Shown here piece by piece: positions 23,294 through 61,088 of a stretch of 64,000 nt of DNA. The DNA comes from Vulcanimicrobiota bacterium (GTDB lineage: Bacteria; Vulcanimicrobiota; Vulcanimicrobiia; Vulcanimicrobiales; Vulcanimicrobiaceae), in assembly GCA_003168375.1 (NCBI GenBank), contig PMSI01000001.1:1550001-1614000 (forward strand), read 5' to 3'. Both the position numbers and the translations under genes were made by a program. The notes under the pieces are model-generated. The model did not search any database and had not been told where the DNA came from. It was given only the letters and a program-made list of their open reading frames with translations. Numbering within the stretch: the first letter of the stretch is position 1; each line of letters opens with the position of its first letter.

Positions 23294-23365
23294 GGGCCCG
23301 TAGCTCAGCGGTAGAGCAGCCGGCTCATAACTGGTAGCGCGCTGGTTCGAATCCAGCCGGGCCCA
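23294..23365 (+). tRNA. tRNA with CAU anticodon (Met or lysidine-Ile)
   Basis: The acceptor GGGCCCG pairs with CGGGCCC at 23358-23364. D arm GCTC/GAGC, anticodon loop CTCATAA (CAU) and T arm GCTGG-TTCGAAT-CCAGC all fold. CCA is not encoded. Elongator Met, initiator Met and Ile2 cannot be told apart firmly by eye; the GU pairs in the anticodon stem argue against an initiator. A regulator gene begins 20 bases downstream. Confidence 0.93.
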
Positions 23366-23384
23366 CAACTCTCCGGCCGACAGT

Positions 23385-25970
23385 GTGATCGTTTCGCGAA
23401 CCTCTCTCTTTCCGCGTGACCGCATCTTCGCGCGCCTCGACGCGGTTCGCGCCGCGCCGGTTGCACTCGTCTCGGCGTCCGCCGCGAGCGGGAAGAGCAC
23501 CGTTCTGCGCGAGTACGTCGCGCATGCGCCGTTCGAGCACGTGCGCTTCGACGGCGCCCCCGAGCACGCGCTCCCCGAGGAGTTCCTGCGCGGGTTCGCC
23601 GCCGCGTTCGCGACCGTGCTCCCCCCGATGGCGTCCTCGATCGGCGCCGCCGCGGCGCGGTTCGCGAAGGGCGACGACGACGACGAAGTGCTGGCCTGGG
23701 CGTCCGAGCACCTCAGCGCGCTCCACGCAACGGTCGTCCTCGACAACCTGCACCACGCGCTGGCGCACGAGCGCATCGCGCGCTTCGTGCACCGTCTCGT
23801 CGACGCGACGCAGCCGCGGGTACGTTGGATCCTGCTGACGCGCAGCGCCGATCAGCTCCCGGTCGCGCGCTGGATGGCGACCGGCGTGATGGAGCTGCCG
23901 CTCGACGAGGGCGACCTCGCCGTCACGCTCGACGAGTTCCGCGTCGCCGCCGAACGCTGCGGCGTGCCGCTCGACGCCGCGGCGCTCGCGCGGATCCACG
24001 ACCGGATGCAGGGCTGGCCGCTCGGGCTCGCCGTCGCGCTCGGCGCGGGCGGCAGCGCGCTCGATCCCGATCTGAAAGGGCGCGACGCGCTCTACGACGC
24101 GGTCGTCGACGCCGCGCTGGGCCCGCGCACGGCGGCCGCGCAGGACGAGCTCTACGTCGCGGCGCTCGCGGCGCGCTTCGACCGGGGGCTGCTCGTTCGG
24201 CTCGGCCTCGAGGAGCGGGTTTGCGACGAGCTCGAAGCCGCAGCCCTCGTCTACGAGCTCGAGCCCGGCGTTTTCGCGTTCCACGAACCGTACCGCGACC
24301 GGCTCGTCGGGCGCATCGATGGGCTCGACGAGCCGCGGCGGCGCCGGCTGGTGCGGGTTGCCGCGAGCGCGCTGCTCGGCGCGGGACGGTGGAGCGAAGC
24401 GATCGCGCTGCTGCTGCACGAGGGCGACGTCATCACGATCGCGGACGTGGTCGAGGAGCGCGGCTTCGCGGCGTTCGACCGCGGCGAAGCGACGCTGCTG
24501 CGCGATGCGCTCGCCGCGTTGCCCGACGACGTCGTGTCGAAGCGCCCGCGTGCGCTTGCGATGAAGGCCGCGCTGGCAGCGCTCGACGACAACTTCGATC
24601 TTTCGGAAGCGTGGTTCCGCATGGCGATCGCGGCCGCCGAAGGCGATGCGCGTCGCGAGATCGTGGTTCGCTACGGGCTCGATCTCGTTCGGCGCGGTCG
24701 CGAAGACGCCGTCGCGCTGCTCGAAGCCGAGACGTCGCGTTCGAGCGAGGAATCAGAGTGGGATGCGGTGCTTTGGGGTCTGCTCGGCACCGCGTTCGTC
24801 GGCGTGCACCGGATGGACGACGCGCGCCGGGCGGCGCGCGTCGCGCTGGGCCGCATCGGCGACGTCACCGACGCGACGCGGCGCTCGCGGGTGCTGCACC
24901 AGGCCGCCTACGTCGCGCTGAACGACCACGATCACGTCTCGGCGAAAGATCTGGCGGAGCGCGCCGTCGCCGAGGCCGAGGCCGCGTTCGCGTACGACAT
25001 CGCGGCGCGTGCGCTCAGCGTGCTGTACGTGCTCGCGATCGACGTCGACGACGACGCGGCGGCGAGCAGAAAGCACCTCCAGCGGCTCGACGAGACCGCG
25101 CGCAAAGCCGGCAACGGGCAGCTCCGCATGTACTCGATCCTCAACGCGTACGAGCTCGAGATGCTCGCCGGCAACACCGCCGCGATCGAGCGGCTCGACG
25201 CGGAGCTGCGCGAGCTGCAGGTCTTTCTGACGCCGCTGGCCAGCGAGACGATCCTGCCCGCGCAGGCGCTCCGCGCGAGCTGGGACGCCCGCTTCGAGCA
25301 CGCCTACCAACTGCTGGCGCCGAGCGCCGAGAAGCAGTTCGACGACGACCGCCGCGCGCAGCGCTGGGCCGAGGCCGCCGTCTACGCGGCGGCGGCCGGG
25401 ATGCGCGGCGAGAGCGTCGCGGCGATGAAAGCCAGCCGCGAGGCGCTGCGCAAGGTCGACCCCGGCGATCGCTGGGCGTTGCGGACCAGCGCCTACCTCG
25501 CGATCGGCGAGATCCTGCTCGCGCACGACGGCCGCGCCCGCAGCGCGGTCGCCGACCTGCGGCGATCGGCCCGGCGCGCCGGCCCCCGCTTCGCGGCGAT
25601 GGTCGACGCGATTCGCGGGCTGCACGCGCGATGGCTGACCGGTTGGCATGCCGATCCGCCGCTCGGCGACGCGATCGAGCGACTCGAAGCCGTCGACCTC
25701 GGCGGGTTCGCCCGGTTCTTGGGCGCCCTGCCGCTGCCGACGACCGACCGCGCCCGGGTCGGTCTGCTCTCCGAGATCGAGAAAGACGTCCTGCGCCTGG
25801 TCGCGGCCGGCGCGACCAGCAAGGAGATCGGGGCCGAGCTCGACCGCAGCCCGCAGACCGTCGACGTCCACCTGCGGACGATCTGCCGGAAGCTCAACTG
25901 CAGCGGCCGGCGGCAGGCGGTGGCGTTCGCAATTCGCGAGGGGCTGATCAAGGAGCGCCGCTCTCCGTAA
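23385..25970 (+). CDS. STAND/TPR-type LuxR regulator, cassette 1
   Basis: 861 residues resembling MalT-type regulators. N-terminal P-loop SASAASGKST (30-39, first Gly of Walker A absent), Walker B VVLDNLH (about 117), a long helical TPR region and a C-terminal LuxR helix-turn-helix (LRLVAAGATSKEIGAELDRSPQTVDVHLRTICRKL, about 800-840; written here as landmarks). It should sense a ligand and activate transcription. A paralogue at 59220-60917 lacks the P-loop half. The GTG start is 20 bases from the tRNA end. HD-GYP and sedolisin genes follow, as in the second cassette. Confidence 0.88.
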   Translation: MIVSRTSLFPRDRIFARLDAVRAAPVALVSASAASGKSTVLREYVAHAPFEHVRFDGAPEHALPEEFLRGFAAAFATVLPPMASSIGAAAARFAKGDDDDEVLAWASEHLSALHATVVLDNLHHALAHERIARFVHRLVDATQPRVRWILLTRSADQLPVARWMATGVMELPLDEGDLAVTLDEFRVAAERCGVPLDAAALARIHDRMQGWPLGLAVALGAGGSALDPDLKGRDALYDAVVDAALGPRTAAAQDELYVAALAARFDRGLLVRLGLEERVCDELEAAALVYELEPGVFAFHEPYRDRLVGRIDGLDEPRRRRLVRVAASALLGAGRWSEAIALLLHEGDVITIADVVEERGFAAFDRGEATLLRDALAALPDDVVSKRPRALAMKAALAALDDNFDLSEAWFRMAIAAAEGDARREIVVRYGLDLVRRGREDAVALLEAETSRSSEESEWDAVLWGLLGTAFVGVHRMDDARRAARVALGRIGDVTDATRRSRVLHQAAYVALNDHDHVSAKDLAERAVAEAEAAFAYDIAARALSVLYVLAIDVDDDAAASRKHLQRLDETARKAGNGQLRMYSILNAYELEMLAGNTAAIERLDAELRELQVFLTPLASETILPAQALRASWDARFEHAYQLLAPSAEKQFDDDRRAQRWAEAAVYAAAAGMRGESVAAMKASREALRKVDPGDRWALRTSAYLAIGEILLAHDGRARSAVADLRRSARRAGPRFAAMVDAIRGLHARWLTGWHADPPLGDAIERLEAVDLGGFARFLGALPLPTTDRARVGLLSEIEKDVLRLVAAGATSKEIGAELDRSPQTVDVHLRTICRKLNCSGRRQAVAFAIREGLIKERRSP

Positions 25971-26037
25971 AGACTCGGCACGTGACGAGGCGGAAGTGGG
26001 GCGATTCGCGAGAAGAAGGGTACTCCTCTTTTACTCT

Positions 26038-26081
26038 CTACCAAGAGTTGGGTAGTGATGAGGGCCCGCACGCGGGGTAGT
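26038..26081 (+). promoter_or_regulatory. Candidate LuxR-type operator upstream of HD-GYP gene 1
   Basis: Inverted repeat CTACC-N8-GGTAG at 26038-26055 followed by TG, with an extra GGGTAGT half-site at 26075-26081. The same CTACC-N8-GGTAGTG arrangement occurs upstream of the paralogous HD-GYP gene at 59254-59271, 78 bases from its start against 88 here. Conservation of both arms with different spacer bases argues for a protein-binding site. Confidence 0.6.
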
Positions 26082-26096
26082 TTGAGCGTGGAGACA

Positions 26097-26122
26097 GTCC
26101 GTCTGCCCTTCAGCCGACGGAC
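26097..26122 (+). promoter_or_regulatory. Leader hairpin before HD-GYP gene 1
   Basis: Perfect 7-bp inverted repeat GTCCGTC/GACGGAC around a 12-base loop. No T tract follows, so it is not a typical terminator. It could protect or control the mRNA; a GGAGG follows at 26129-26133 before the TTG start. Confidence 0.4.
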
Positions 26123-26143
26123 CAGCATGGAGGCACTTCCCCC

Positions 26144-27112
26144 TTGTATCAGACCCGATCGGTCCGCCGCGGAGACCCGCGACTCTCGGCCGCGCTGAAG
26201 GAGCGCGAGCGAGAGATCGCGTCCGAGGCGTTGGCCCGCGTCAGCGCCCAGACCCGCACCGTCGCCGCCGAGCTCCTCGCGGTGCGGTTCGTCGAGCGTT
26301 TCGCCGCATCGGTCGAAGTCGCCGACTGGACGATCCTGCTGCGCTGGGTCGACGGCGCGTGCCGGCGCTACGCCGGCGTGCTGGCCGTCGCCCCGCTGCT
26401 GATCGCCGTCGCCGAAACGGTCCGGATCACGGTTGCCTCGGCCGCGGGCCTGCCGTGCGACATCCGCGAGATCGATCTCGTCCATGCCGAGATCGAACGC
26501 CTCGCCTCGATCCCCCGGCTGGTTCGCGAACCGGCGCTGCACGAAGCGATCGACGAGATCGACGTCGCGCTCGACGACCTGATCGCCCGGCTCGACGACA
26601 GCGACCCGCTGACCGCCGAGCACTCACGCGCGGTGTCGTCCTGGTGCGCGCGCCTCGGCCGCCGCCTCGCACTGGCAAAGCACGACATCGTCGGGGTTTC
26701 GCGCTGCGGGCTGATTCACGACGTCGGCAAGATCACGACGCCGCTCGAGATCCTCAACGCGCCGCGCCGCCTCAGCGACGAAGAGATGGTGGTGATGCGG
26801 CGCCATGCGGAAGACGGCGCGAAGCTGATCGCTGCGATGCCGCTCGTGAACCACATGACGCCGGCGGTGCGCAACCACCACGAACGTTTCGACGGACGCG
26901 GATATCCCGACGGCTTGGCGGGCGGCTCGATTCCGAGCTTCGCGCGCATCGTCTCCGTCGCGGACGCGTTCAACGCGATGATCGGCCGCCGCCCCTACCG
27001 GCCGCCGTTCGCGCCGTCGGTCGCGCTGGAGCGGCTCGTCGAGAACCGCGGCACCCAATTCGATCCAATCGTCGTCGACGCGATGGTCGACGTCGTCACC
27101 AATCGCGGATAA
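26144..27112 (+). CDS. HD-GYP domain protein (c-di-GMP phosphodiesterase-like), cassette 1
   Basis: 322 residues. A helical N-terminal region without recognised sensor precedes the HD-GYP domain: H160, H192-D193, K196, H221, H245-H246-E247 and the GYP signature in DGRGYPDGL (253-255). The full metal-ligand set suggests an active hydrolase of cyclic di-GMP or a related dinucleotide. No membrane segment. The TTG start is favoured because the paralogue also begins MYQT, there with GTG, and GGAGG precedes it. The sedolisin gene follows after 46 bases. Confidence 0.9.
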   Translation: MYQTRSVRRGDPRLSAALKEREREIASEALARVSAQTRTVAAELLAVRFVERFAASVEVADWTILLRWVDGACRRYAGVLAVAPLLIAVAETVRITVASAAGLPCDIREIDLVHAEIERLASIPRLVREPALHEAIDEIDVALDDLIARLDDSDPLTAEHSRAVSSWCARLGRRLALAKHDIVGVSRCGLIHDVGKITTPLEILNAPRRLSDEEMVVMRRHAEDGAKLIAAMPLVNHMTPAVRNHHERFDGRGYPDGLAGGSIPSFARIVSVADAFNAMIGRRPYRPPFAPSVALERLVENRGTQFDPIVVDAMVDVVTNRG

Positions 27113-27158
27113 CCTCGGATACCCCGGCAGAACGCCACCTCTCGAGCAAAGGAATGCA

Positions 27159-28478
27159 ATGAGAAAGCCGATCATCCCCCGATCGTTTACCGCCCTGGTC
27201 GTCGTCGGACTGCTGGCGGGTGTCGCTGCATGCAGCGGCGGGATCGGTTCCTATGTTCCGTCGGGTGGTGAACGGTCTACCGAATCCGGTCGCGCGCTGC
27301 CCGGAGGCTCGCCGACGCCGACGCCGATGCCGGGCGAAACGCCGGCGCCGCCGCCACATCATCACATTCTCTCGGGACGCGCGCTCCCCGGGCAGCCGAC
27401 GCCGACGCCGACGCCGACGCAGGCGCCGCTCGTCACCTCCGTGCTGTGCACCGCAGGCGTCGGCGCGAACTGCCACGTGCTCCAGAACACCGCGCTCGCG
27501 CCGCTGCTCGATGCGCTGGGAATCCTCATCCCCGGCTACCATCCGGCCGACCTGCGCAGTGCATACGGTCTCTCGCCGCTGCCGCTTCTCAGCGGTCTCC
27601 TCGGCGGCGGTTCGACGGCGCCGAACGGGCCGACGATCGCGATCGTCAACGCATTCGACGATCCCAACGCCGAGCACGATCTCGGCGTTTACCGGAATCG
27701 CATGGGCCTGCCGCCGTGCACGAGCGCGAACGGCTGCTTCAAGAAGCTCAACGCAGCCCTACAGAAGGGCCCGTATCCGTTGTCGAACCGCGGATGGACC
27801 GCCGAGACGTCGCTCGATCTCGCGATGGCGTCGGCCGCGTGTCCGACCTGCCGTATCGCGCTGATCGAAGCCGCCGACGACAACCTCGAATCGTTGGCCG
27901 CGATCGTCGACAAGCTGGCGCAGCCAGGTTCCGCGATCGCGCCGGCTGCGATCAGCAACAGCTGGGGTGCACCGGAGACGAGCGACGTCACCGAGCTGGA
28001 ACACTCCTTCGCACATCCCGGCGTGCCGATCGTCGCGAGCGCCGGTGACGACGGGCGCGTCGAGTTCCCGGCGTCGTCGTCGAACGTGGTCTCGGTCGCC
28101 GGCACGACGCTCTCGCGGGGGTTGCTCTCGGGCTGGAGCGAGACCCCGTGGACCCCGTCGGGGACCGGCTGCAGCGGATACTTCGTCGCCGGCTCCTGGC
28201 AGCACACGAGCTGCGGCAAGCGCAGCGTCGCGGACGTCTCGGTCGTCGCCGACCTGAACCCCGGGATCGCGGTCTACGACTCGGCCGCCGGCGGCTGGGT
28301 CGTGTACGGCGGGACGAGCGCGGGCGCGCCGTTCATCGCCGGCCTCTTCGCAGCGGCACACGACTATCCGTCGAACGGCGTCGGTGCGGCACCGGTGTAC
28401 GCAAAGGCGTCGCATCTGAAGGCGCTTGCGGGCTCGACCATCTCGCTCGGTTCACCGAGCGGATTGGGGGCGTTCTAA
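27159..28478 (+). CDS. S53 (sedolisin-like) protease lipoprotein, cassette 1
   Basis: 439 residues. Signal peptide with lipobox ending at C25 (GVAAC), two SGRALPG motifs around Pro-Thr repeats (about 44-90), then the catalytic domain opening at LRSAYGLSP. The sedolisin set is complete: E216 and D220 (AETSLD), oxyanion D297 (SAGDDG), Ser387 in GGTSAGAP. The long propeptide of classical sedolisins is missing. Ends GSPSGLGAF, as its paralogue does. Probably anchored to the outer surface; acid-active if like the family. Confidence 0.88.
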   Translation: MRKPIIPRSFTALVVVGLLAGVAACSGGIGSYVPSGGERSTESGRALPGGSPTPTPMPGETPAPPPHHHILSGRALPGQPTPTPTPTQAPLVTSVLCTAGVGANCHVLQNTALAPLLDALGILIPGYHPADLRSAYGLSPLPLLSGLLGGGSTAPNGPTIAIVNAFDDPNAEHDLGVYRNRMGLPPCTSANGCFKKLNAALQKGPYPLSNRGWTAETSLDLAMASAACPTCRIALIEAADDNLESLAAIVDKLAQPGSAIAPAAISNSWGAPETSDVTELEHSFAHPGVPIVASAGDDGRVEFPASSSNVVSVAGTTLSRGLLSGWSETPWTPSGTGCSGYFVAGSWQHTSCGKRSVADVSVVADLNPGIAVYDSAAGGWVVYGGTSAGAPFIAGLFAAAHDYPSNGVGAAPVYAKASHLKALAGSTISLGSPSGLGAF

Positions 28479-28522: not shown

Positions 28523-28597
28523 GGCGCCATAGTCTATCGGTTAGGACGCCGCCCTTTCAAGGCGGAGAGACGGGTTCGACCCCCGTTGGCGCTACCA
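28523..28597 (+). tRNA. tRNA-Glu (UUC), island attachment gene
   Basis: Acceptor GGCGCCA pairs with TGGCGCT (one GU); D arm, anticodon stem CCGCC/GGCGG with loop CTTTCAA (UUC), T arm ACGGG/CCCGT. CCA is encoded (28595-28597). The last 16 bases, CCCGTTGGCGCTACCA, recur at 31686 and 41687, making this tRNA the likely integration site for the following island. Confidence 0.94.
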
Positions 28598-57034: not shown

Positions 57035-58183
57035 TTAGAAGGCGCCGAGCCCGTTCGGGCTGCCGGGTGTCGCCGGATTTCCCGCCGGGTCGACCGCGTT
57101 GAGTGACGCGAGGTGTGCGTAGATCGATGGCGCGCCGACAGCATTCGTACCGAAGTCGCTCGCTTGGGCGTAGAGCCCGGCCACGAACGGCGAGCCGACG
57201 CTGGTTCCACCCAGCACGATCCAACCTCCGTCACTGCTATCGTAGACGGCGATTCCGGGATTGAGCGCCGCGACGAACGAGACGTCGGGGACCGATCGTG
57301 TGGTGCATGAGGTACCGGTCTGCCAAGCGGGTGCAACCGTCACCGTGCTGCAGCCGGCACCGGAGCTGGCCCATGACGACTCACTCCAACCGCGCGAACT
57401 GCCGTCGTGCGTGAGCGTCGTTCCGCCGACTGCGGTGACGTATCCGGATGACGCCGGGTATTGGACGGTGCCGTCATCACCCGTGCTCGCGACGATCGCG
57501 ATACCCGGATGGTTGTAGTGGCCGTTGAGGTTGGCACTACCCTGCGCTTCCGGGATGCCGTAACTGTTGCTGATTGCCGCGGGGTTCAGCGCAGCGGCGG
57601 CATCGACCGCGAGGGCGAGGACGCTCGGGTTCGCGTTTTGTGCTTCGATGAGCGTCAACCGGCAGGTGGGGCAGGCCGCCGACGCCATTGCGAGGTCGAG
57701 CGACATCTCCTCGGACCAGCTGCGGTTGTACGGCGTCCAGACGCTGGGATTCTTGATCTTCGTGAAACAGCCGTTGGCCGAGGTGCACGGCGCCAGCCCG
57801 AAGCGCTGGCGATAGATCGCGAGGTCGGATTCGGCGTTCGGATCGTCGTAGGCGGCGACGATCGCGATGAGCGGCCCGGTCGCCGGGGCACTCGTCGCCG
57901 GAGACAGCCCGTATGCGGATCGCAGATCGGCCGGCTTCAGGCCTGCGATCGTCGCCGCGTTCGGATCGGCGATGGGAAGGATGTCGACGTTCACCTGCAC
58001 ATAGCAGCCGAGCTCGCCGAGGACAACCGTGCACGCCCCGGGCAGGGCGCGAGAGTAGAGCGGTGTTCGCGCCGTGCCTTGCACCGCGCCGCCGCTTTGC
58101 GGTGGTACGGCGGTCGCAACGCCGTTCGCACCGCACCCCGCCAAGAGCGCGCCGGCGACGGCGATGAAGATAGTACGATTCAC
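57035..58183 (-). CDS. S53 (sedolisin-like) protease lipoprotein, cassette 2
   Basis: 382 residues from GTG 58183. Lipobox ends at C17 (LLAGC); a single SRALPG motif precedes the catalytic domain, which opens LRSAYGLSP. Sedolisin residues: E159 and D163 (SEEMSLD), D236 (STGDDG), S328 (GGTSVGSP). No long propeptide. GTG overlaps the HD-GYP stop as GTGA. Paralogue of 27159-28478 but lacks its Pro-Thr linker. Confidence 0.88.
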   Translation of the reverse strand: MNRTIFIAVAGALLAGCGANGVATAVPPQSGGAVQGTARTPLYSRALPGACTVVLGELGCYVQVNVDILPIADPNAATIAGLKPADLRSAYGLSPATSAPATGPLIAIVAAYDDPNAESDLAIYRQRFGLAPCTSANGCFTKIKNPSVWTPYNRSWSEEMSLDLAMASAACPTCRLTLIEAQNANPSVLALAVDAAAALNPAAISNSYGIPEAQGSANLNGHYNHPGIAIVASTGDDGTVQYPASSGYVTAVGGTTLTHDGSSRGWSESSWASSGAGCSTVTVAPAWQTGTSCTTRSVPDVSFVAALNPGIAVYDSSDGGWIVLGGTSVGSPFVAGLYAQASDFGTNAVGAPSIYAHLASLNAVDPAGNPATPGSPNGLGAF

Positions 58184-59175
58184 GGTAGGTCTACTCGATT
58201 CAGTGGAAGTTGAGTGGTGTTTACGACATCGATCATTGCATCGACGACGATCGGGTCGAATTGTGTGCCGCGGCCTGCGACGAGGCGCTCGAGCGCGACG
58301 GCCGGTCCGAGCGGCGGGCGATACGGACGCCGCCCGATCATCGCGTTGAACGCGTCGGCGACGCAGACGATCCGGGCGGACACCGGTATGCCCGTCCCGG
58401 CCAACCCGTCGGGATAGCCGGCGCCGTCGATGCGCTCGTGATGGTTGCGAACGGCGGGCAACAGGTGCGCGACCAGCGGGAGCCCCGCGACCGTATCGCC
58501 GCCGTCGGCGGCGTGCCGCTTCATGATGACGAACTCGTCGGCGGTGAGCTTGCGCGGGGCGTTCAGAATCTCCGGCGGCGTCCAGATCTTCCCGATGTCG
58601 TGGATCAGACCGCTGCGGGAGATCTCGATCGTGTCCTGCTTGCTCAGCGACATCCGCTCGGCGAGCCGCGCACACCACGCCGCGACCGCTCGCGAGTGCT
58701 CCGCGGTCAGCTCGTCGCTCTGATCGAGGCGTGTTATCAAATCGTCGAGCGCGACGTCGACTTCGTCGATCGCCTCATGGTGTGCGGCATGGACCAGGCG
58801 GGGCAGCGCCGTGAGGCGCTCGACGTCCCGCCGTAGACCCTCGAGGTCGGCGTCCGAAAGTCCGGCGTTCGGCACGTTCTCGACGACGTCGCACGTGGCG
58901 CCGACCGCGACCGAGATGAGCTCCGTCATCGGGAGAATGCCGGCATACCGCCGGCACGACGCGTCGACGAACGAAAGCAGCGGTGCCCATTCCCCGGACG
59001 AGACGGACGCCGAAAAACGCTCGACGAGGCGGCTCGCGACGATCTCCGCGGCGACGGTTCGATGACGCGGTGCCATCGCGTTGAGGGCGCTCGCAGCGAT
59101 GTCGGGAAGGCGCGCATTCAGCGCGGAACTGAGCCGAGCGTCCGAAACGGGGGCGCTGCGAATCGTCTGGTACAC
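58180..59175 (-). CDS. HD-GYP domain protein, cassette 2
   Basis: 331 residues from GTG 59175, opening MYQT like its paralogue. Ligands are complete: EHSRAVAAW, LIHDIGKIWTP, MKRHAADGG, RNHHERIDGAGYPDGL. Homology spans the whole length; the N-terminal third is more diverged. Likely cyclic di-GMP hydrolase. The stop overlaps the sedolisin start, direct evidence that cell-signal turnover and the protease are co-expressed. Confidence 0.9.
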   Translation of the reverse strand: MYQTIRSAPVSDARLSSALNARLPDIAASALNAMAPRHRTVAAEIVASRLVERFSASVSSGEWAPLLSFVDASCRRYAGILPMTELISVAVGATCDVVENVPNAGLSDADLEGLRRDVERLTALPRLVHAAHHEAIDEVDVALDDLITRLDQSDELTAEHSRAVAAWCARLAERMSLSKQDTIEISRSGLIHDIGKIWTPPEILNAPRKLTADEFVIMKRHAADGGDTVAGLPLVAHLLPAVRNHHERIDGAGYPDGLAGTGIPVSARIVCVADAFNAMIGRRPYRPPLGPAVALERLVAGRGTQFDPIVVDAMIDVVNTTQLPLNRVDLP

Positions 59176-59219: not shown

Positions 59220-60917
59220 CTACCGAGCGTATGAGATCGCCTCGATTCGTGCACTACCCGCAATGGGGTAGGGACCTGCGAGAGGGCCTCCTGCAGAGCG
59301 TCCGCCGGGCTGGCGCCGTTCGTCGATCAGTCCGGAACGAATCGCGAAACCGACGGCGCGCCGGCGCCCGCTGCAGCCGAGCTTTCGGCAAATCGTTCGC
59401 ACGTGGACGTCGATCGTCTGCGCGCTGCGGTCGAACTCCGCTGCGATCTCCTTGCTCGTCTCGCCGGTGGCGATGCGACGGATGATCGACTTTTCCAACT
59501 CGCTGAGCAGTGAGACGCGCCCTTGCGGCGACGTCGGCAGCGAAAGTGCCTCGATGAAACGCGCTATCCCGCCGAGCTCGACGCGTTCGAGCCGTTCGAG
59601 CGCGTTGGGGAGGGAGAAGGGTTCTTCCGATCTGCCGCTCCAGCGCGCGTAGAGCGCGCGGATCGCCTCGACGAGCGCGAAGAACCTCGGCCCGGCGCGG
59701 CGCGCCGCCACGCGCAAGCCGGCGATCGCGGTGCGGGCGCGCCCGTCATGCGCGAGGAGGATCTCGGCGATCGTCAGGAATGCTTGCGCACGCAGCGACG
59801 AGCGGTCGGACGCGTGCGCCTTCCGCAACGCTGCTCGGCATTTCCCAATCGCGCGGGTGCTCTCGGTGCGCATTCCCGCTGCCGCGGCGTACGCCGCGAC
59901 TTCCGCCCAGCGAACGGCTCGGCGGTCCTCGTCGAACTGTTGCTCGGCGCTTGGGGACAGCAGCGAATGAGCGTGCTCGAATCGACCCTCCCACGCGGCG
60001 CGGAGCGCCTGCGCCGGCAGGAGCGATTCGCTCGCCATCGGGGTCAGAAAGATGCGGAGCTGCGCCAGTTCCGAGTCGAGGATCTCGATGCCGTCGAGGT
60101 TGCCGGCATCGACGTCGAGCTCGTACAGGTTCATGATCGCGTACAGGGCGAGCGCGGGATTCGATGCTTTTCGCGCGCAGTCGGTCATGCGTACGAGATA
60201 CGCGCGAGCGGCGGCCGGGTCGTCCTGGACGCCGACCGAAAGGTTGTGCAGGACGCTCAGCGCGCGCGCCGCGACATCGTACAGCTGGGCGCGCTCGGCG
60301 TGCTCGAGCGCCATCTGCGCCAGGTCGAAGGCTGAGGTCATGTCGCCGTCGTTCAGCGCGACGAAGGACGCTTGGTGAAAGATGCGGGCGCGCACGCCGT
60401 CGTCGTGGACCGCGTGCAGAGCGCGTAGCGCTTTCCTTGCCGCCCGTCGCGCGTCGTCGAGGCGGTGCGCGCCGACGTAGGCCGTTGCGAGCAGCGCCGC
60501 GAGCGGAGCCGAGCTTGCTTCATCGAGTCCAGGGCGCTCGATCTCGGTGCAGAGAAACGCGACGGCGTCCGACCGCGAGCGGCGCACGAGATCGAGCCCG
60601 AACCGGACGACGATCTCCCTGCGGGTATCGCCCATCGCGTCGCCGAGCGCCATTTCGAACCAAACATCGGCGAGGTCGAAGCGGCCGTCGAGCGACGCGA
60701 CCATCGCCTTGAGCGTGAGCGCTGCGGGGTTCTTCGCGAGCACATCGTTGGGAACCGAAGCGAGCGTGGCGCGCACGACACCGACGTGGCCGGAGTCAAA
60801 AGCGCGAAAGCCGTGCAGATCGAGCCACGACGCGACGAGGCCCGGGTCGGCAGCCGCTGGCAACGCCGTTATCGCCGACGCTGGTTCGTCGGGTGCCTGT
60901 GTCCCGGGGCCTGCCAT
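59220..60917 (-). CDS. TPR/LuxR regulator lacking P-loop, cassette 2
   Basis: 565 residues from ATG 60917. Aligns with the second half of the regulator at 23385 (FDLADVWFEMAL, FLTPMASESLLPAQALRA, DEDRRAVRWAEVAAYAAAAG) to the LuxR helix-turn-helix (SKEIAAEFDRSAQTIDVHVR). The P-loop domain and its first 340 residues are missing. The C-terminus runs 28 residues past the paralogue's stop, through a candidate operator. A start at 60995 would read through an operator array and is rejected. Confidence 0.85.
   Translation of the reverse strand: MAGPGTQAPDEPASAITALPAAADPGLVASWLDLHGFRAFDSGHVGVVRATLASVPNDVLAKNPAALTLKAMVASLDGRFDLADVWFEMALGDAMGDTRREIVVRFGLDLVRRSRSDAVAFLCTEIERPGLDEASSAPLAALLATAYVGAHRLDDARRAARKALRALHAVHDDGVRARIFHQASFVALNDGDMTSAFDLAQMALEHAERAQLYDVAARALSVLHNLSVGVQDDPAAARAYLVRMTDCARKASNPALALYAIMNLYELDVDAGNLDGIEILDSELAQLRIFLTPMASESLLPAQALRAAWEGRFEHAHSLLSPSAEQQFDEDRRAVRWAEVAAYAAAAGMRTESTRAIGKCRAALRKAHASDRSSLRAQAFLTIAEILLAHDGRARTAIAGLRVAARRAGPRFFALVEAIRALYARWSGRSEEPFSLPNALERLERVELGGIARFIEALSLPTSPQGRVSLLSELEKSIIRRIATGETSKEIAAEFDRSAQTIDVHVRTICRKLGCSGRRRAVGFAIRSGLIDERRQPGGRSAGGPLAGPYPIAGSARIEAISYAR
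59254..59271 (-). promoter_or_regulatory. Candidate operator upstream of HD-GYP gene 2
   Basis: CTACC-N8-GGTAG, read on the minus strand followed by TG, same arms and spacing as 26038-26055. It lies inside the 3' end of the regulator gene, 78 bases before the HD-GYP start. Confidence 0.6.
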
Positions 60918-60923
60918 GGAGCG

Positions 60924-60988
60924 ATCGTAGCGGCGTCCGGTAACGGCACCGTTACCGCCGACGGTCACCGGGTAACGCGGAGGTAACG
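60924..60988 (-). promoter_or_regulatory. Regulator 2 promoter with GGTAAC site array
   Basis: Perfect palindrome GGTAACGG-CA-CCGTTACC (60939-60956) plus direct GGTAACG sites at 60971-60977 and 60982-60988. On the minus strand TACGAT (60924-60929) would be the -10 box, giving a start at or next to the ATG 60917. The palindrome covers the poor -35 region, as expected of an activator site. Confidence 0.65.
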
Positions 60989-61088
60989 GGAGCACGAAAG
61001 CGCCGAGCGCTCAGCGTCTTGCGAGCGAAAAAGGGCCGCGGCGCAATGCGTCGCGGCTCTCTTTCGGCTTTGCCCGAGACCTTAGCCC

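Follow-up and report, generated by a model that had tools for sequence, protein, structure and literature searches.

Upstream of two genes for HD-GYP proteins, the analysed window, a stretch of DNA of 64,000 nucleotides, carries a rare palindrome that is most likely the direct operator of the adjacent MalT-type (LAL) LuxR-HTH regulator. The palindrome lies very probably where an activator sits on the promoter, and the window circuit is very probably one of a family of similar circuits found in Eremiobacterota, a bacterial phylum that has been little studied. Sequence analysis establishes the motif, its conservation, a fixed geometry, an association with HTH-encoding neighbours and a co-variation of recognition helix and operator. 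The features of the two cassettes are the following:

23385..25970, + strand: LAL1, MalT-type regulator of 861 aa (STAND NTPase, TPR solenoid, C-terminal GerE/LuxR HTH)
26014..26030, + strand: upstream block AGAAGGGTNNNCCTCTT, from alignments of six type-A leaders
26038..26055, + strand: operator 1, predicted LAL1 dimer site, CTACC-N8-GGTAG
26055..26060, + strand: -35-like region GTGATG, placed by its position relative to the -10 box; its TG is invariant in six leaders
26078..26083, + strand: -10-like box TAGTTT, 22 bp past operator 1, holding most of a supposed extra half-site
26129..26133, + strand: Shine-Dalgarno sequence GGAGG of HD-GYP 1, seen in the sequence
26144..27112, + strand: HD-GYP 1, predicted c-di-GMP phosphodiesterase of 322 aa (HD_5, 4.9e-36)
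27159..28478, + strand: peptidase 1, predicted lipoprotein, subtilase/sedolisin-like, 439 aa (Peptidase_S8, 1.9e-06)
57035..58192, - strand: peptidase 2, homologue of peptidase 1 (tblastn, 48% identity)
58180..59175, - strand: HD-GYP 2, 331 aa (HD_5, 7e-35; 60% identity to HD-GYP 1)
59220..60995, - strand: LAL2, TPR and GerE HTH regulator (GerE, 8.7e-12; no NTPase match)
59226..59231, - strand: -10-like box TACGCT, 22 bp past operator 2
59254..59271, - strand: operator 2 (predicted), CTACCCCATTGCGGGTAG as read on the - strand

Gene order is identical in both window cassettes: LuxR-HTH regulator, motif, HD-GYP gene, peptidase gene. An earlier note had described motif copies at 26038-26055 and 59254-59271, 88 and 78 bases before the respective start codons, and had suggested that the HD-GYP/protease pair is under the direct control of the LuxR-type regulator next to it. 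Positions and distances were confirmed. Direct control gains support, at the level of sequence, from the rarity of the motif and its conservation in relatives, and further from the fixed -10 distance, the co-occurrence with an HTH and the co-variation of palindrome and recognition helix. In the strict sense the palindrome is CTACC-N8-GGTAG. The TG that follows, which the note had counted in the motif, is indeed conserved but lies outside it, and its place in the predicted -35 region would explain its conservation.

The motif is not scattered over the genome, a point on which the note had made its suggestion depend. A genome-wide pattern scan found exact CTACCN8GGTAGTG at two sites in the whole 4.43-Mb genome, both of them in HD-GYP leaders. 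Dropping the TG adds one intergenic site (C6:1064068, between ORFs), rejected as a third promoter site as it has no TANNNT at 22-23 bp. The raw genomic count of the motif shows no excess over a reversed control pattern: the signal is one of location and conservation, not of abundance. Conservation in relatives, the other point at stake, also held. The six closest HD-GYP genes (type A) are the two window copies and orthologues in the genomes G001, G003, G008 and G010, the orthologous proteins being 60-67% identical to HD-GYP 1; the core TACCN8GGTA is kept in all six, 95-108 bp 5' of the start. When aligned, the six leaders have a mean identity of 56%; the longest stretches that never change are TACC, GGGTAGTG and TA...T, and the spacer is variable. 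The pattern TACCN8GGTAGTG-N20-22-TANNNT occurs in 5/5 genus genomes whose type-A cassette encodes the HTH (G003 shows it twice, on overlapping contig ends) and in 0/6 other genus genomes. The exact type-A promoter pattern is absent from the sampled family genomes outside the genus, since other cassette types use other palindromes. The block AGAAGGGTNNNCCTCTT, 8-9 bp 5' of the operator and with related sequence in 6/6 type-A leaders, is possibly a second protein site.

A TANNNT box follows the 18-mer at 22-23 bp in 6/6 orthologues (TAGTTT, TACTGT, TACAGT, TATTGT, TACGCT and TACGCT); these -10 boxes are TANNNT matches only, promoters of the host phylum being unmapped. Setting the box at -12 to -7 places the 18-mer at -52 to -35 or 1 base further, so that it is centred near -43.5/-44.5 and borders directly on the -35 region. 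The GGGTAGT at 26075-26081, put forward in the note as an extra half-site, is present; it was rejected as a second regulator site, being absent from the other five leaders and overlapping the -10 box.

Several relatives have lost or rearranged the cassette, and the absence of the operator where the HTH or the HD-GYP gene is gone speaks for direct control by the LAL. The four A' cassettes have a LAL homologue without HTH, with the peptidase gene before the LAL gene and the HD-GYP gene directly after it, and show no palindrome; the order peptidase, HTH-less LAL, HD-GYP, without operator, is that of the rearranged cassettes at the loci L126-L130. Genome G004, whose flanks are 93% identical, carries a single deletion of window 23455-27850 that takes out nearly the whole regulator, the operator, the HD-GYP gene and part of the peptidase gene. 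In G006 a remnant of the regulator containing the HTH is retained, and operator, HD-GYP and peptidase are lost. Cassette 1 is flanked by tRNA-Met and tRNA-Glu genes (window 23294-23366 and 28523-28597), as are its counterparts in G008 and G010, and the deletions in G004 and G006 fall between this same tRNA pair.

The association was examined across the family, mostly in MAGs of Candidatus Eremiobacterota: in 99 genomes there were 111 distinct HD-GYP loci, and at 62 of them a LuxR HTH is encoded no more than 900 bp upstream. Leaders were scanned for a palindrome followed after 21-24 bp by TANNNT, with expectations taken from dinucleotide shuffles. The scan was positive in 46 of 61 leaders with the HTH (2.3 expected) and in 2 of 47 without it (1.5 expected), the latter group taking in HD-GYP loci without any regulator (Fisher 6e-15, relatedness ignored). 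About one quarter of the HTH-associated leaders failed the automated scan, which missed some visible cases such as L123, where the operator has an outer mismatch. By genus labels the positives cover about 15 genera. When the palindrome was picked blind to the -10 box, TANNNT lay at offsets of 21 (2 cases), 22 (23), 23 (14) and 17 (1), and nowhere else between 5 and 41.

LAL1 has a GerE HTH (1.3e-14 in the Pfam scan) and an N-terminal STAND NTPase whose Walker A GKS motif is seen in the sequence. It matches the MalT model NF003420 over 7-414 (8.3e-29), under the curated equivalog cut-off (100 vs 537 bits). Its AlphaFold model (pLDDT 88) has MalT as best structural match (8bob, Z 29.4) and also matches the STAND-TPR protein 6mfv and MalT domain III (1hz4, Z 23.1, over 454-783); the pheromone receptors Rap (8rst, Z 21.6) and NprR (4gpk, Z 19.4) come next, which is weak evidence for RRNPPA-type peptide quorum sensing, TPR folds being common. 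LAL2 is without the STAND NTPase half, its alignment to LAL1 beginning at residue 336. The LAL2 orthologue of G001 is likewise without this half, and the LAL2 ORF continues through operator 2. The Pfam scan found no receiver domain in either protein and no autoinducer-binding domain (GerE only, plus a sub-threshold AAA_22 in LAL1), so that LAL1 and LAL2 differ in this respect from the regulators of LuxR/LuxI acyl-homoserine-lactone quorum sensing.

Cassettes of other types carry their own palindromes, as follows:

Type A: CTACC-N8-GGTAG
Type B: CTCGTCCTTTCGGACGAG
Type C: CTACTTAAATTTAAGTAG, CTAGTGAATTTTCACTAG and similar
Type D: CTACCC-N7-GGGTAG
Type F: ATACCCAAATTTGGGTAG
Type G: ATGAGGC-N4-GCCTCAT

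The type-B regulator is a LAL about 27% identical, and its different 18-bp palindrome is likewise followed by TANNNT at 22-23 bp; the type-B 20-mer including TG occurs, as an exact match, once per genome in eight genus genomes, within type-B leaders. Distances between HTHs and distances between operators are correlated (Mantel r 0.79; permutation maximum 0.23). This correlation partly reflects shared descent, since HD-GYP distance is also correlated with operator distance (r 0.60). Within type C, a recognition helix of the form xTH/xTQ goes with C at base 4 in 12/12 cases and xAH with G in 6/6. Types A and D have in common the helix SxQT(V/I)D and CTACC half-sites. It is on the contrast of 46/61 with 2/47 leaders, together with a palindrome that varies with the recognition helix, that we accept direct operator function as the probable one.

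Three other readings were weighed against direct control by the adjoining LAL. The palindrome could be the operator of another dimeric regulator encoded elsewhere, which would tie the HD-GYP cassettes to another network: a palindrome alone cannot identify its protein, and LAL2, missing its NTPase half, is of uncertain activity. This we judge improbable, as the operator varies with the adjoining HTH and with one helix residue, the site is absent from every other promoter of the genome, and HD-GYP loci lacking the HTH have no site. A role as RNA, i.e. as a hairpin that terminates or attenuates transcription between the genes for the regulator and HD-GYP, would suit a self-complementary sequence that in most cassettes directly follows the stop codon of the regulator gene; it is very improbable, considering that there is no T-tract, that the fixed -10 distance puts the palindrome upstream of the start site, that Rfam matches in the window are limited to tRNAs (no riboswitch, for c-di-GMP or other, was found in the leader), and that AT-rich arms in some relatives, e.g. 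CTACTTAAATTTAAGTAG, would give a weak hairpin. That the palindrome has no function, and reflects common descent of the two homologous window cassettes (their HD-GYP proteins being 60% identical) and of their orthologues, plus chance, is scarcely credible given invariant arms around a variable spacer in leaders that otherwise average 56% identity, and given unrelated palindromes at the corresponding position in cassettes of other types.

Under direct control by the LAL, a dimer of its GerE HTH would bind the 18-bp inverted repeat (16-bp core TACC-N8-GGTA, with NarL-like 7-2-7 spacing). Bound around -43.5/-44.5 and abutting the -35 region, it would activate a promoter with its -10 box 22-23 bp further downstream, from which the HD-GYP gene and then the secreted peptidase gene would be transcribed. 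With an own palindrome for each cassette type, several insulated circuits could coexist in one genome. We infer DNA binding, activation over repression, the transcription start, and the sensing of a signal by the TPR that would set c-di-GMP breakdown and proteolysis.

NarL, a regulator with a receiver domain, recognizes heptamers of consensus TACYYMT, which the half-sites TACCAAG, TACCCAA, TACCCCA and TACCCGC fit only in part. The 16 bp of TACC-N8-GGTA correspond to two inverted 7-mers 2 bp apart, i.e. to a 7-2-7 layout. NarL 7-2-7 sites resemble the window operator in being 16-bp inverted repeats with TAC...GTA ends, bound by a GerE-type HTH, with one site abutting -35 (PMC7419079). By analogy only, activation is the likelier sign of regulation here: the 7-2-7 site from which NarL activates E. 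coli ogt adjoins -35 and has its centre at -44.5 (PMC7419079). Unlike in NarL, the HTH is carried by a MalT-like STAND/TPR protein without receiver domain, and the sequence differs from one cassette type to the next. LAL1 shares with MalT/LAL regulators the STAND NTPase, the TPR sensor and the C-terminal LuxR HTH, but scores far under the MalT equivalog cut-off. MalT boxes are direct-repeat or asymmetric. The SARP-LAL PimR binds heptameric direct repeats via its SARP part (PMC5930380).

Concerning the output, both window HD-GYP proteins have intact HD and HHExxDGxGYP motifs and are predicted to be c-di-GMP phosphodiesterases. RpfG is the HD-GYP phosphodiesterase of the DSF system; the likeness lies in an HD-GYP protein as the output of a signalling pathway, and the difference in a control predicted to act at transcription, via the LAL. 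Peptidase 1 has a signal/lipobox visible at its N-terminus and zero matches among PDB sequences; for peptidase 2, the longer ORF tested gave no Pfam match. A conserved RALP(G/A) stands just past the lipobox in the peptidase N-termini of most type A and A' cassettes, and SGRALPG is present twice in peptidase 1.

In most relatives, peptide ORFs of 20-45 residues, some with tandem repeats, lie between the promoter and the HD-GYP gene. Types B, C, D, F and G have a short ORF that is provided with a Shine-Dalgarno sequence and begins about 26-54 bases past the -10 box. Strict short-ORF rules are satisfied by 40 of 50 such leaders (about 3.7 expected from shuffles), and PP falls within the last nine residues in 29 of the 50 (0.08 expected); MIDALLIIATVACLVPPMGG and MTAAAIVLAIITFLSVPPAPIG are examples. 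The products at L183, L055, L208, L112-L119 and L034-L054 are hydrophobic or lipoprotein-like, and many of them end in PPxxG. Differences between close pairs fall at codon positions 1/2/3 in the numbers 35/15/58. Three precursors carry tandem repeats. L183 contains SVVPVGGA three times, and each of the 8 codons shows a synonymous difference in one repeat or more; the lipoprotein-like precursors of L055 and L208 contain five repeats each, of AIPV/PIPV type in L055 and of FPVS type in L208. The peptides of the relatives are possibly pheromone-like, and 19 oligopeptide-binding-protein genes in the host genome would permit peptide import. Type-A leaders, those of the window included, have no short peptide ORF between promoter and HD-GYP.

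The cassettes resemble the RRNPPA systems (Rap, NprR, PlcR, Rgg) in the TPR receptor fold and in the adjacent gene, present in sister cassettes, for a short peptide that in some cases is tandemly repeated (PMC10075063, PMC11343458); RRNPPA propeptides, too, include ones with pheromones in tandem (PMC11343458). They differ in having a C-terminal GerE HTH, rather than the N-terminal HTH/effector domain of RRNPPA, and a STAND NTPase, in a host that is Eremiobacterota and not Firmicutes, and in window cassettes whose leaders hold no peptide ORF. We tentatively suggest a new peptide-signalling family in Eremiobacterota, in which the TPR of the MalT-like LAL might sense a short peptide whose gene, in types B, C, D, F and G, is subject to the operator of that same LAL, and switch on both the peptide and the HD-GYP phosphodiesterase; in type A, which has no peptide gene, the secreted RALP(G/A) peptidase may supply or process the signal. 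A description of such a LAL/HD-GYP/peptide signalling system was not found in the open-access full-text literature.

Dozens of matched GerE-fold regulator-operator pairs, of fixed geometry and varying specificity, make HTH recognition rules readable and testable. The cassettes also point to a control of c-di-GMP that depends on density or on peptides in Eremiobacterota, a phylum whose members are known chiefly through metagenomes. LALs that have no HD-GYP gene downstream (L105-L111, L092) show no palindrome-plus--10 combination upstream; a recurring TATACC(C)...GGGG element is found upstream of their LAL gene.
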